64,000 nt of DNA from Ignavibacteriota bacterium. GTDB lineage: Bacteria; Bacteroidota; Ignavibacteria; Ignavibacteriales; Melioribacteraceae. The position numbers were made by a program, and so were the translations under genes. Below are positions 19,420 through 63,462 of the stretch, one piece after another. Where the stretch lies: NCBI GenBank assembly GCA_002698995.1, contig PAAX01000027.1:62001-126000 (forward strand). Reading direction: 5' to 3'. The notes beneath the pieces were generated by a model. The model searched no databases, was not told the origin of the DNA, and was given only the letters and a program-made list of their open reading frames with translations. Each line of letters starts with the position of its first letter. The stretch's first letter is position 1.

Positions 19420-19450
19420 TTTGTGAAATCAAATTAAAGAATTACATTTG
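19420..19450 (+). promoter_or_regulatory. Bacteroidetes-type promoter upstream of cobalamin riboswitch
   Basis: TTTG (19420-19423), 19 bases, then TACATTTG (19443-19450): an exact fit to TTTG-N19-TAnnTTTG. Transcription would start near 19456, about 15 bases before the riboswitch aptamer. Confidence 0.6.
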
Positions 19451-19470
19451 TTCAGTTCTTTAAAATTAAT

Positions 19471-19625
19471 CTAAAGGTTCCAAGTAAGGATTAATAGGGA
19501 ATCCGGTGTAATTCCGGAACTGTTCCCGCAACTGTAAACTGTTGTAGTCTTAAAATAATACCACTGTCTAAATTGATGGGAAGGATTTTAAGATGTGCAG
19601 TAAGTCAGGAGACCTGCCTTAAGAT
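19471..19625 (+). ncRNA. Cobalamin (B12) riboswitch aptamer
   Basis: The conserved order of cobalamin riboswitch elements is visible: a 5' strand 'AAAGGTTCC', 'AGGGAATCCGGTG', 'AATTCCGGAACTGTTCCCGC' with 'AACTGTAA', a variable arm, the box 'ACCACTGTC' with 'GATGGGAAGG', and the 3' box 'GTAAGTCAGGAGACCTGCC'. These match the adenosylcobalamin-type aptamer, so vitamin B12 binding is well supported. It leads the transcript of the BtuG-like lipoprotein gene at 19747. The 5' and 3' limits are approximate to a few bases. Confidence 0.95.
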
Positions 19626-19704
19626 AAAGAACGTTAGCTTTCGGGAGTTGGGGCTAACTAAGTAATTATATTTACTTTTACTTATTACCTTCTCTAACTT
19701 ACCG

Positions 19705-19744
19705 TAAGCTTCCATTTAACTAATTTAATTTCATTGGGAGCTTA
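19705..19744 (+). promoter_or_regulatory. Ribosome-site sequestering hairpin (riboswitch expression platform)
   Basis: TAAGCTTCC (19705-19713) can pair with GGGAGCTTA (19736-19744): nine base pairs with one G-U. The second arm contains the whole Shine-Dalgarno GGGAG (19736-19740), six bases before the ATG at 19747. The loop is 22 bases. No U-run follows, so control at translation rather than termination is the simpler reading. Coupling to the aptamer is inferred. Confidence 0.55.
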
Positions 19745-19746
19745 TT

Positions 19747-20814
19747 ATGAAAAACAAATTTTATTTAGTCACTCTATTTTTTCTTTTATTAATAATTGGA
19801 TGCACAGATAATACTACTGGTCCCGAAGATCCGCCGCCAAATGTAAAAAAAGGACTTCTTATAGTTAACGAGGGACTTTTTGCACAGAATAATTCTTCCC
19901 TAACTTTTTTCAGCTTGGATGAATACAAACTTTATCCTGATGTTTATAAATCTTCAAATAACAATAACAGTTTAGGTGATACGGCAAATGATCTTTATTC
20001 ATATGATGGTAAAGCTTATATCACTGTTGATCTTTCGAATAAAATTGAGGTTGTTGATATAAATACTTTTAAGTCGGAAGGATTTATTGATCTCGGCTCG
20101 AACTCAGGACCAAGAGAAGTTATCATAATGAATAAAAACGAAGGCTATGTTACTTCCGGAGGAAGAGATGCCGTAATTAAATTTAATCCTGAAAGTAAAA
20201 CTCAACTTATTGAAATAAAGGTTGGTTCCAGACCGGAAGGAATTGAGTTTTACCAAGATAGAATCTTTGCTGCAAATTCAGGTTTTGGAAGTGACAGTAC
20301 CGTTAGTGTTATTAGAAATGATCAAAAGGTTGAAGATATAGTACTATGGTCAAATCCAAGAATTATTCTTAAGGATAATGATTTTATTTATGTAGTCTGT
20401 TCAGGTAATTACTTTGATGCGGAAGGAACAGGAGCTGTGTTTAAAATTAATCCATTAACATACGATGTTATTAATGAAATTAAAATAACGGGTAATCCTG
20501 GAGAAGCTGTTCTATCAGGAGATGGTTATATGTACATTGTTAATAATGAAGGAATTATAAAACTCGACTTAAATACTTTCAAACTTATTCCCAATTATAT
20601 AATTGAAGGAACGAGAGTAAATCCTTCGATGGGAATTATTTACTCAATTTCATACGACTTTTTTGAAAGAAGAATTATCGCAGGTAATCCTAAAGATTTT
20701 ATGCAGAACGGAGAAGTAGTTATTTTTGAAGAAAACGGAACCGAAGTTACACGATTCGATACTGGAATAAATCCCGGAACTGTTTCTATAATTGATCAGA
20801 TCATAACCGATTAA
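19747..20814 (+). CDS. btuG: BtuG-like beta-propeller lipoprotein (cobalamin capture)
   Basis: A 355-residue lipoprotein: signal with lipobox Cys ('LFFLLLIIGCTDN'), Pro-rich linker, then a YncE/DUF5074-type propeller. The start 'GLLIVNEGLFAQNNSSLTFF' and 'GDTANDLYSYDGKAYITVDL' with 'NKIEVVDINTFKSEGFIDLG' closely resemble the known pattern of BtuG, the surface lipoprotein of Bacteroides that binds B12 tightly and passes it to BtuB. The cobalamin riboswitch directly upstream agrees. Unlike in Bacteroides, no btuB follows immediately; the next gene is a porin-like barrel 152 bases on. A TonB-dependent receptor at 61306 is not under a visible riboswitch. Family and B12 link are strong, exact orthology is likely. 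Confidence 0.85.
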   Translation: MKNKFYLVTLFFLLLIIGCTDNTTGPEDPPPNVKKGLLIVNEGLFAQNNSSLTFFSLDEYKLYPDVYKSSNNNNSLGDTANDLYSYDGKAYITVDLSNKIEVVDINTFKSEGFIDLGSNSGPREVIIMNKNEGYVTSGGRDAVIKFNPESKTQLIEIKVGSRPEGIEFYQDRIFAANSGFGSDSTVSVIRNDQKVEDIVLWSNPRIILKDNDFIYVVCSGNYFDAEGTGAVFKINPLTYDVINEIKITGNPGEAVLSGDGYMYIVNNEGIIKLDLNTFKLIPNYIIEGTRVNPSMGIIYSISYDFFERRIIAGNPKDFMQNGEVVIFEENGTEVTRFDTGINPGTVSIIDQIITD

Positions 20815-20822
20815 GTAAATTT

Positions 20823-20857
20823 AATTCTGCTGATGGAATTTTTTCATCGGCAGAATT
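20823..20857 (+). terminator. Long hairpin after the BtuG-like gene, probable terminator
   Basis: AATTCTGCTGATG (20823-20835) pairs with CATCGGCAGAATT (20845-20857), 13 pairs with one wobble and a nine-base T-rich loop. No clear T run follows, so termination strength is uncertain. The rest of the 152-base gap up to 20966 is AT-rich with no other clear element. Confidence 0.45.
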
Positions 20858-20966
20858 GAATCAATTCTAATTAAACAACATCATATCTTATTCGATAATA
20901 ATATTTGCGGTATTAATTTATTATCTTTTTAAAGAAAGCAAATTCAGAATAAAATAAGGATATGTT

Positions 20967-22007
20967 ATGAAAAAATATTTTTCATTTTTTATAATTCTTT
21001 TATTAATAACATCGATGACAAGCTTAAATGCTCAAACCGGCGATTTCAGTCCTAAATTTTTTGGTTATGTTAAATCTTTTCATCAAAGTGATTTAACCGA
21101 TGGACAAGGACAATTTTCAGTTGTTCATGCTCGTTTAGGTGTGCGTGGTAATCTAAATGAAAATGTAAGTTATAGAATATTTACAGATTACGCACGACTT
21201 CTAGGTGCGAGTGTGGTAGGCACCGACTCTGACGGTGACGGTGAATTAAACAGTGCACGATTAAATCTTCGTTCAATTTTACTTGATGCTTTTTTCAATA
21301 TGAAACTTACTGATAGATTAAGTTTTTCAATCGGGCAGTATAAAATTCCATTCAGTACATCAAATTTAAGAAGTCCGGTTGAAATGGAATTTGTAAACAG
21401 ACCTTTAACTACATCGGTAACTCCTGCTCTTCGCGATGTAGGTTTAACAGTTTATTACAAGAATAAGGAAGTTCTTCCGATTGATGCGGCATTAGGTGTT
21501 TTTAACGGAAGCGGTGAGAATGTTAATGAAAACAACAAAACTATGAATTATTCTGCTCGTGTTGTTGCATCTCCAATAAACGAAATTAAGATTTCGGGAA
21601 ACTACTATGGCGGCAAAATCAATAATGCTGATGTTAATATTTTTGATATAGGTGTTCATGCTAAGTTTAATAATATTTTGTTTGACGGCGAATTTGTATC
21701 AAGAAAAAATGATATTCCCAACGTATTAGAGTTTACCTCCACAGGATACTTTGTTTATACCGGATATATTTTTGCAACTGATTTCTGGGTTGTAAATTCT
21801 ATAACTCCTTTAGTGAGATATGAAAACTTTGATCCTTCTACTAATATTAATGATGATCAATTAACCAGATTTACAGCAGGTATTAATTTTGGTCTAGCAG
21901 ATAAAAATTTTACCGGAATAAGACTTAATTACGAAAACAGAGATACTAAAAATCCCATTTTCAATTCTAATGATTATTTCTATGCTTCTTTTCAGGTGGT
22001 CTTTTAA
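20967..22007 (+). CDS. Porin-like outer-membrane beta-barrel protein (OprO/P type)
   Basis: A 346-residue outer-membrane barrel with a signal peptide (about residues 1-22, 'IILLLITSMTSLNAQ'). It resembles phosphate-selective porins: 'PKFFGYVKSFHQSD' at the mature start, 'VVHARLGVRGNLNENVSYRIFTDYA', 'FNMKLTDRLSFSIGQYKIPFS', 'RDVGLTVYY', and a final 'DYFYASFQVVF' strand ending in Phe. A 'DSDGDGELN' loop is acidic, similar to the loop in the porin at 12293. It stands alone between the BtuG-like gene's hairpin and a strong convergent terminator. Whether it belongs to the riboswitch transcript depends on whether the 20823 hairpin terminates. Substrate unknown. Confidence 0.75.
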   Translation: MKKYFSFFIILLLITSMTSLNAQTGDFSPKFFGYVKSFHQSDLTDGQGQFSVVHARLGVRGNLNENVSYRIFTDYARLLGASVVGTDSDGDGELNSARLNLRSILLDAFFNMKLTDRLSFSIGQYKIPFSTSNLRSPVEMEFVNRPLTTSVTPALRDVGLTVYYKNKEVLPIDAALGVFNGSGENVNENNKTMNYSARVVASPINEIKISGNYYGGKINNADVNIFDIGVHAKFNNILFDGEFVSRKNDIPNVLEFTSTGYFVYTGYIFATDFWVVNSITPLVRYENFDPSTNINDDQLTRFTAGINFGLADKNFTGIRLNYENRDTKNPIFNSNDYFYASFQVVF

Positions 22008-60797: not shown

Positions 60798-61313
60798 ATG
60801 AGATTTTTTCTTATAGGAATTTTACTATCCTTTCTCTTATTCGGCTGTGATAAAGGGCTTGAACCTCTTGATGAAGATACTTTAATCGGAACAGGATTTA
60901 CCGGAACAATAACTTTTAATGGTGAATGGCCCGACAGTGTTTTCAGAACCGTTGTAGTTTTATTTAAGGACAATTTAAATAGTCCGCTTGATTTCAACAT
61001 CGTAAACCTCAGATATATTAGCGAAGAAATTCCTTACGGAGTTAATTCGTATGAATATTCATCTCTGCAAAATTTTACTGTTGCAAATGTAACAGCTGGC
61101 GAGTACGCTTATCTTGCTGTAGCTCAATCAAAAACGGAAGAACTCTCTTTAGATAGAAAAGATTGGTATGTTGTAGGACTTTATGCTGCGGATGAAAGCC
61201 AGCAAAATCCAGCCATACTAAAAATTAACAACAATGAAGTTAAGCAGAATGTAAATATTGTCTGTGATTTCAACAATCCTCCAATACAACCACCGGGAGG
61301 AATAAGTGATTAG
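60798..61313 (+). CDS. Lipoprotein of unknown family paired with a TonB-dependent receptor
   Basis: A 171-residue lipoprotein (signal 'LIGILLSFLLFGCDKG', lipobox Cys about 17). The rest is beta-rich: 'GTGFTGTITFNGEWPDSVFRTVVVLFKDNLN' and 'FTVANVTAGEYAYLAVAQSK', possibly one immunoglobulin-like domain, with a Pro-rich tail ('PPIQPPGGISD'). I do not recognise the family. Its stop overlaps the GTG start of the receptor by eight bases, so the two are translated together, which suggests a surface capture partner for the receptor's substrate. The substrate cannot be told from sequence. Confidence 0.7.
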   Translation: MRFFLIGILLSFLLFGCDKGLEPLDEDTLIGTGFTGTITFNGEWPDSVFRTVVVLFKDNLNSPLDFNIVNLRYISEEIPYGVNSYEYSSLQNFTVANVTAGEYAYLAVAQSKTEELSLDRKDWYVVGLYAADESQQNPAILKINNNEVKQNVNIVCDFNNPPIQPPGGISD

Positions 61314-63462
61314 AATATTTCTATTATTACTTTTTGTGCTGATGAATATCAATGCCCAGCAGCACTCTCTAAGAGGATTTATTTATGATGAGAATGAAAA
61401 TCCTTTAATCGGTGCAAATATAATTATTAAGGGAACGGTTTACGGAACCTCTACTAATAATGACGGTTATTTTATTTTTGAAAACCTCGAACTTCCTAAA
61501 GTTGTTGTAGAAGTTTCCATGATAGGATTTGTAAAATTTACTTCTGAGGAACTTGATCTTACTGAAAATTCCGAATTAGAAATTACCTTAACACAATCCG
61601 ATTATGAACTAAATGAAGTAATTGTAACAGCTGGTAAATATAAACAGTCAATTAAAGATCTTCCGGTTAGTGCCGAAGTTTTAAGTGCTGAGTTTCTGAA
61701 TAAAAAAAATATTGTGAAATTTGATGATGCACTTAGATACGTTCCCGGGGTGCAGGTAACATTAGATCAAGTAAGTATAAGGGGTTCAAGCGGATACAGC
61801 CGAGGAGCAGGAACGCGTGTTCTCACTGCAATTGACGGAATTCCACTTTATACCGGAGATACCGGGGAAATAATCTGGGAAATTATTCCAGTACTAGATT
61901 TGGAAAGAGTTGAAGTTGTTAAAGGGGCAGCAAGTTCTATTTATGGATCTACTGCAATAGGTGGTGTTATAAATGTAATTACCAAGGATATTCCAAACAA
62001 GTCTTTAATCTCGGTTTCTACTTATCTTGGAGCTTATGATAAACCCTCATTCAGCCAATGGGACTGGTCAAACAAATATAGAACTTTTAACGGCATTTCC
62101 GTTTCTCATACAAATTCGATAACTGAAAAATTAGGAGTTTCATTTTCACTTTCTAGAAAAGAAGATTTAAGTTACAGACAAGGAGGATGGTTCCATCGTT
62201 ATTCTGGATATTTAAAATCAAAATATAATTTTGATGAAAACACATCCTTAACATTATTGGCTACTGGTTATAATCAAATAAGAGGAAATTTTAATTTTTG
62301 GAAAAATCTGAATAATGCTTTAGTTCCTCCGGATGGCGATCAAGGTATTACAGTTCCTTCAGAAAGATATATAATGGGTTTTTCATTAAATAAAAGATTA
62401 GATAATAAATTTAGTTATAAAATAACCGGAAGCTGGTATAGATCTATATGGAGCGATCAATCTGAATCCGATAATTCCTCTAACTCAAATTTATTTAGAG
62501 GAGAAGTTCAAACCGATTGGAATATTTCCGAATCACTTAAATTAATTAGCGGTACAGAGCTTCTTTGGGGAGAAGTAAACTCAAATATCTTTGGTAATCC
62601 AAACTCATCAAGTTTGGGATTTTATTCTCAACTTGAATTTCAATTGAACCGACAAATTAAATTATTTTCCGGCTTGAGATATGATCTCAATAAATTAGAT
62701 ACTCTAAAGTCTGAAAACTCAGTTTCACCTAAAATTGGTATAAACTATCAACCTACGGAAACAACGGCAATTAGAGCCAGTTTTGGCAAGGGCTTTAGGG
62801 CCCCTAGTCTTGCGGAAGCTTTTACTTCCACTATTACAAGCGGACTTGTAGTAAGACCAAATCCCCAGATTAAACCGGAGTATAATTATTCATACGAGTT
62901 TGGTATTAATCAAATTATATCAAAAAATATTTCTATAGATGCTGCATTTTTTCAGAATGATTATTTTGATATGATAGAGCCGGCATTCGAACCGGGAGGT
63001 CAATTTGTAATTTTTGATAATATAACAAAAGCAAGAATTCAAGGAACAGAATTAAATATTAAAACAGATATAGAATTTATTAATTCAATGTTCAGTATAA
63101 ATCATACTTACTTATGGGCGAGGGATTTAATCAATAATAAAGCATTAAAATATCGTCCAAGAAACCTCATTTATCTTAGTCTGGAAACCAATTTTAATTA
63201 TTTCGAAACAAGAATAGATTTCAGATATTGGAGCAGAGCAGAAGAAATTGATGACCAGCTTTCCAGAGTTGTTGCTGATGCACAATCTAGAGTTGAAGTT
63301 TTTGTAACCGATATTTCACTCGGAGCAAACTTATTTCAAATCGGAATACCCGGAAGAATCAATTTTGTTTTGAACAACATATTTAATTATAATTATGTAG
63401 AAATGATTGGAAATATTTCACCTATACGTAATATTTCAGTAAATTTAGATTTGTTATTTTAA
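61306..63462 (+). CDS. TonB-dependent outer-membrane receptor with N-terminal carboxypeptidase-regulatory-like domain
   Basis: A 718-residue active importer or sensor of the outer membrane. Start GTG at 61306, with ribosome site GGGAGG just upstream. Signal peptide (about residues 1-17, 'FLLLLFVLMNINAQ'), then a CarboxypepD_reg-like domain (about 20-95, 'LRGFIYDENENPLIGANIIIKGTVYGTSTNNDGYFIFENLEL'), a plug domain ('VRIRGSSGYSRGAGTRVLTAIDGIPLYTGDTGE'-like region and 'LERVEVVKGAASSIYGSTAIGGVINVITKD') and a 22-strand barrel with late 'KPEYNYSYEFGINQIIS' and final 'NISVNLDLLF'. The structure resembles BtuB/siderophore receptors; its ligand is unknown. A cobalamin ligand is possible given the BtuG-like gene in the window, but no riboswitch precedes it. 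Confidence 0.9.
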   Translation: MIRIFLLLLFVLMNINAQQHSLRGFIYDENENPLIGANIIIKGTVYGTSTNNDGYFIFENLELPKVVVEVSMIGFVKFTSEELDLTENSELEITLTQSDYELNEVIVTAGKYKQSIKDLPVSAEVLSAEFLNKKNIVKFDDALRYVPGVQVTLDQVSIRGSSGYSRGAGTRVLTAIDGIPLYTGDTGEIIWEIIPVLDLERVEVVKGAASSIYGSTAIGGVINVITKDIPNKSLISVSTYLGAYDKPSFSQWDWSNKYRTFNGISVSHTNSITEKLGVSFSLSRKEDLSYRQGGWFHRYSGYLKSKYNFDENTSLTLLATGYNQIRGNFNFWKNLNNALVPPDGDQGITVPSERYIMGFSLNKRLDNKFSYKITGSWYRSIWSDQSESDNSSNSNLFRGEVQTDWNISESLKLISGTELLWGEVNSNIFGNPNSSSLGFYSQLEFQLNRQIKLFSGLRYDLNKLDTLKSENSVSPKIGINYQPTETTAIRASFGKGFRAPSLAEAFTSTITSGLVVRPNPQIKPEYNYSYEFGINQIISKNISIDAAFFQNDYFDMIEPAFEPGGQFVIFDNITKARIQGTELNIKTDIEFINSMFSINHTYLWARDLINNKALKYRPRNLIYLSLETNFNYFETRIDFRYWSRAEEIDDQLSRVVADAQSRVEVFVTDISLGANLFQIGIPGRINFVLNNIFNYNYVEMIGNISPIRNISVNLDLLF

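Follow-up and report, generated by a model that had tools for sequence, protein, structure and literature searches.

BtuB and BtuG form a tight pair, and their genes lie side by side. A well-described example is BtuG2/BtuB2 of Bacteroides thetaiotaomicron (BT1954/BT1953), a riboswitch-controlled B12 locus whose BtuG surface lipoprotein shares fold and family with the one reported here. Stable complexes of BtuG with BtuB were described for B. thetaiotaomicron (PMC10404256), and 106 of 112 btuG genes of gut Bacteroidetes are located inside btuB operons (PMC6143338). For the translational riboswitches of E. coli btuB and env8 it was reported that the kissing loop stabilises P13, promoting formation of the ribosome-binding-site (RBS) hairpin (PMC10653944).

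The locus investigated here, located in a window of 64,000 nucleotides, combines elements of both systems. Similar to E. coli btuB and env8, its leader contains an L5-L13 kissing loop, a P13 element and a hairpin over the ribosome-binding site; those switches control a receptor, whereas the present one controls a capture lipoprotein. In contrast to BT1954/BT1953, where btuG adjoins btuB, the riboswitch is followed here by btuG alone, and btuB lies elsewhere, without a recognisable riboswitch. The parts are known and the arrangement is uncommon; a riboswitch-driven btuG separate from btuB was not found described in the literature searched. We read the locus as a single-gene unit in which B12 represses the translation of btuG through the riboswitch, with the receptor BtuB encoded remotely, and assign this reading a probability of about 80 %.

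Leader and lipoprotein gene

The features of the locus are the following, all on the forward strand:

19420..19450, +, promoter-like sequence of the Bacteroidota type, TTTG-N19-TACATTTG (consensus match only)
19458..19635, +, cobalamin riboswitch aptamer, RF00174 (117.4 bits, full length)
19523..19528, +, L5 loop UUCCCG, half of the kissing loop (fits the UCCCG consensus of PMC10653944; six contiguous pairs with L13)
19633..19658, +, P13 hairpin GUUAGC..GCUAAC with L13 CGGGAG at 19642-19647 (folding and complementarity)
19689..19704, +, in the alternative fold, pairing partner of the opened P13/L13 (19642-19653) (minimum free energy fold of 19640-19770 and constrained folds)
19704..19745, +, ribosome-site hairpin of 11 pairs covering the Shine-Dalgarno (SD) sequence GGGAG at 19736-19740 (folding)
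19747..20814, +, btuG, predicted seven-bladed propeller surface lipoprotein of 355 aa (sequence matches and predicted fold)
20819..20861, +, terminator-like hairpin of 20 bp 3' of btuG (z −7.9; weak T tract)

An earlier, sequence-only reading of this DNA had proposed a promoter, a cobalamin aptamer, a nine-pair hairpin at 19705-19744 hiding the whole SD, and a BtuG-like lipoprotein without a receptor behind it. The promoter-like sequence is the sole exact N19 match in the window when both strands are scanned. The aptamer was confirmed by the covariance model with a score far above the gathering score of 31.5 (E 8.7e-29, model positions 1-189 complete), and in a scan of the whole genome it was the single RF00174 copy above threshold. 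Its end lies 111 nt from the start codon of the lipoprotein. P13, which couples the aptamer to the hairpin and had been overlooked in that reading, follows directly 3' of the aptamer, and its loop is complementary to L5 over the six contiguous pairs. The proposed hairpin indeed buries the SD completely, but it consists of 11 pairs and not nine: 19704-19714 is paired with 19735-19745 around a loop of 20 nt (−13.5 kcal/mol), and the stem stops just 5' of the ATG. With a z score of −4.3 it was equalled in stability by 1 of 200 shuffled sequences. The leader carries the parts of a translational cobalamin switch, namely L5, P13/L13 and an SD-burying hairpin. A kissing contact between UGUAAUU in an aptamer loop and AAUUUCA in the ribosome-site hairpin was also considered and dropped, L5 being the UCCCG loop and P13 lying right behind the aptamer.

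The gene behind the riboswitch encodes a BtuG by sequence and predicted fold, for which corrinoid binding is predicted. It is the only btuG copy of the genome. The lipobox LIIGC is seen at residues 15-19, Pfam assigns DUF5074 (63.4 bits), and a single-sequence phmmer search matched the B. thetaiotaomicron BtuG chains in the PDB (E 4e-23). In a profile search BtuG1 was matched with E 2e-55, BtuG2 and BtuG3 were matched too, and the motif EGLFxQNNSSL is common to the lipoprotein and BtuG1. The AlphaFold (AF2) model (pLDDT 89) gave top Foldseek/VIA matches that are all BtuG structures (Z 37-40), the best being 8bmz, 8bmy, 8bai, 8okv and 8blw (VIA Z 39-40). The next-best fold relative, another propeller, reached Z 35. 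Because other propellers reach Z 30-35, the fold by itself is no proof of BtuG, and the sequence match decides.

No TonB receptor was found beside btuG among the open reading frames of the window and their Pfam matches, as the sequence-only reading had stated; the next gene, at 20967, encodes a Porin_O_P protein of 346 aa. A scan of the forward strand for consensus terminators found none, the hairpin at 20819-20861 with its weak T tract lying outside the consensus. Since this 20-bp hairpin stands behind the gene and is followed by the porin gene, btuG appears monocistronic, suggesting that it is transcribed alone.

Proposed switch mechanism

At high cellular cobalamin, the ligand-bound aptamer would present L5 (UUCCCG) for kissing with L13 (CGGGAG), keeping P13 closed. 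The strand 19704-19714 would then be free to pair with 19735-19745, the SD would be buried and BtuG would not be made. At low cobalamin, P13 would open, and the P13 strand together with L13 could pair with 19689-19709, in competition with the 5' arm of the ribosome-site hairpin, so that BtuG would be produced. The protein would serve as outer-membrane, B12-capturing lid for the BtuB encoded at G000:C7:250029-252158, a receptor without recognisable riboswitch.

Nearest-neighbour folding fits this picture. Exposure of the SD costs 11.8 kcal/mol with P13 and L13 held closed and 3.2 kcal/mol without constraint, the lower cost being due to 19689-19709, which offers the opened P13 strand a pairing partner. 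The match is not conclusive, as thermodynamics alone keep the SD closed: in unconstrained folding the SD hairpin is preferred even with P13 open, and the unpaired probability of the SD is about 0.01. The predicted ON state consequently needs cotranscriptional folding or competition by the ribosome. Across 54 riboswitches of the order, the runs of pairs formed by each riboswitch's own L5 and L13 had a mean of 4.69, exceeding all of 300 swaps (mean 4.39, maximum 4.65).

A switch acting mainly by transcription termination or Rho, with the ribosome-site hairpin in a secondary role, could be considered in view of terminator-like hairpins with T runs in the leaders of some relatives (e.g. L089, L092 and L124). 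We regard it as very improbable here: the stretch from aptamer to start codon showed no hairpin of terminator type with a T run, and its strongest hairpin is the one over the SD.

A hidden ribosome site is a common feature of leaders in the order, but the exact stem is not conserved. Another SD-covering stem, GTTAC..GTAAC, occurs in 31 of 58 riboswitch leaders of relatives, and the leaders of btuB-btuG operons are without it; the sequence of the window hairpin has no homologue in the relatives' leaders. The expectation of a hairpin conserved in relatives thus holds for the occlusion but not for the stem. As a separate observation, btuB leaders of the order (e.g. L105, L107, L119 and L120) share a CCCACGAAGTTAC stretch with two possible partners. 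Its partner can be L13 (CTTCGYGGG) or the GTAACTTC beside the SD, so that these leaders are readable as a two-state switch.

The remote receptor

To the sequence-only reading the isolated lipoprotein gene suggested a remote partner, with btuB to be looked for elsewhere under a second riboswitch. In the source genome (4.23 Mb, 36 contigs, 99.99 % complete) the counterpart of the btuG-operon receptors is P0002 on contig 7 (G000:C7:250029-252158), with up to 39 % identity and E 8e-143. Its best matches in relatives in the reverse search were exactly the riboswitch-controlled receptors beside btuG. In a receptor tree from a short search under a simple model, P0002 groups with the receptors of riboswitch-btuB-btuG operons (SH-aLRT 100), as the only receptor of the genome to do so. 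Its only NCBIfam match is TIGR01779 (TonB-B12) with 81.9 bits, below the equivalog cut-off of 599.7; the btuG-linked receptor of L082 likewise remains under this cut-off with 93.4 bits. By sequence comparison we assign the contig-7 receptor as the BtuB orthologue and predicted remote partner of BtuG. A TonB receptor within the window (61306-63462) had been considered as partner and was rejected, as its best NCBIfam family is of the heme type and it falls outside the btuG-linked set.

The expected partner was hence found and the second riboswitch was not. A divergent gene lies only 149 bp from the start of P0002, and upstream of the receptor no cobalamin riboswitch was matched with Rfam, even at E up to 1. 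Different control of BtuB and BtuG is awkward for a tight 1:1 complex. The remote receptor might also be B12-regulated through a diverged or non-riboswitch element, hence without any regulatory uncoupling, and operon 4 of B. thetaiotaomicron is indeed B12-regulated with no identifiable riboswitch (PMC12751083). Given that merely 149 bp are available upstream, with no cobalamin-riboswitch match at E up to 1, we consider such co-regulation doubtful.

A role of the lipoprotein as a B12 store, either soluble or on vesicles and with no receptor of its own, would agree with a transcript lacking a receptor and with the recurrence in the phylum of riboswitch-btuG units without nearby btuB. Further, Bacteroides has several B12-binding lipoproteins, some of them on vesicles (PMC12751083). 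The presence in the genome of a BtuB orthologous to the btuG-linked receptors and the stability of BtuG-BtuB complexes in B. thetaiotaomicron (PMC10404256) point the other way, leaving little likelihood for a store. The genome encodes several proteins with B12-binding domains, including open reading frames of 1250 and 735 aa, as well as a BtuF-like protein. In size the two frames match MetH and methylmalonyl-CoA mutase, names that are taken from size.

Gene order in the order and phylum

Cobalamin riboswitches occur in 56 of the 58 genomes sampled from the order, the window genome included. They usually stand before a gene of 640-740 aa, a TonB receptor where checked, and a nearby btuG, if any, follows the receptor gene. 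A survey of 164 genomes of the order gave a distance from riboswitch to btuG start of 2.1-3.6 kb, compared to 111 nt in the window; it covers btuG homologues sharing a contig with a listed riboswitch (about 35 relatives), with distances taken from the listed coordinates. The gene between riboswitch and btuG was btuB in the 15 fetched loci inspected. The riboswitch-btuB-btuG operons of the order (G044, G027, G025, G026, G013 and others) share with the window an orthologous btuG (35-44 % identity) and a cobalamin riboswitch; they differ by the btuB in between and by riboswitches that mostly belong to another aptamer group. With nothing between riboswitch and btuG, the window genome is the exception in its order. 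A scan of the genome collection revealed a single additional btuG, in L141 (Melioribacteraceae), close to a contig end; as far as readable, it is preceded by the C terminus of a receptor-like protein and not by a riboswitch. Adjacency to btuB, otherwise typical of BtuG, is absent here and present for the orthologues in the order; it is a genomic habit of the BtuG family and not a property of the protein.

The claim that an isolated riboswitch-btuG is uncommon holds within the order, where the window is unique among the sampled genomes, but the arrangement recurs in other families of the phylum. In 80 btuG loci sampled across the phylum, btuB is located just upstream in most. In at least seven of the 80, btuG comes immediately after the riboswitch and the 3.5 kb or so downstream contain no BtuB, as searched with a profile built from the window's order, which distant receptors could escape. 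These loci are L204, L210, L212, L215, L218 (one family), L221 and L225. Their open reading frame lists contain no same-strand, receptor-sized gene downstream, and the riboswitch was confirmed with Rfam in all seven, for L204 and L210 via the overlapping loci L184 and L190. They resemble the window in the riboswitch directly before btuG and in having no btuB nearby; they differ in belonging to other families and, for L204, L210 and L212, in the proteins with type IX secretion (T9SS) tails that follow btuG.

Two side observations concern exported proteins. After the stand-alone riboswitch-btuG of L204 (1166-2503, minus strand), L210 and L212 comes another DUF5074-like propeller that bears a T9SS tail, its domains having been checked for L204. 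Additionally, a protein of 285-340 aa lies beside btuG/btuB or behind a riboswitch in about 18 loci (L083:2818-3765, L086:12089-13027 and L204:100-1089, the latter two on the minus strand, L229, L245, L251, L263, L265, L270, L274 and others); several of its members bear a type IX secretion tail. A profile of this protein hit the BtuH-like domain of BtuG1 (8blw 430-497, E 5e-5), and the same chain came out as top PDB match of its model; it is probably a T9SS-exported, BtuH-type B12 binder.

As to the origin of the arrangement, the riboswitches of the order fall into two sets by their L5/P13 sequence. The first (n=46) mostly precedes btuB, with btuG present or absent; the second precedes nrdD, metE, a btuF-like gene and some receptors. 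Pfam identifies the gene behind the riboswitch as nrdD in L098, metE in L104 and btuF-like in L128, and nrdA was rejected as identity of these non-btuB genes; the nrdA labels of L110, L113 and L127 come from sequence inspection only. The window aptamer falls outside all 46 btuB-type riboswitches, the split between type 1 and type 2 plus window having support 100/97; an attachment of the window beside both aptamer groups was not rejected by the tree (p-AU 0.39). The grouping by L13 type had been noticed ahead of tree building.

One conceivable history starts from the usual riboswitch-btuB-btuG operon: btuB would have been cut out in situ, so that the riboswitch formerly in front of btuB now precedes btuG. 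The 111 nt from riboswitch to start resemble the btuB leaders of relatives (about 100-130 nt), and btuG is normally next after btuB. Excision is nevertheless improbable, given the 100/97 split, the L5 TTCCCG and P13 AGC..GCT here versus CCCCGC/CTTCGCGGG in btuB-type riboswitches, and the BtuB orthologue that persists elsewhere in the genome. With an aptamer that is not part of the order's btuB-type group, a placement of btuG behind a different riboswitch is a more likely history than deletion of btuB.

B12 homeostasis might operate here only through the capture lid: constitutive BtuB and riboswitch-regulated BtuG could let the ratio of lid to channel set the affinity of uptake, and the same uncoupling, with btuG behind a separate riboswitch, could have arisen repeatedly in the phylum; we offer this tentatively. 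With only the lid under recognisable B12 control, the locus lets one ask which half of the BtuB/BtuG pair limits uptake, and the window genome also raises the question of whether BtuB functions without its lid at plentiful B12. It further indicates that the usual pairing of a riboswitch with its genes can come apart and be combined anew.
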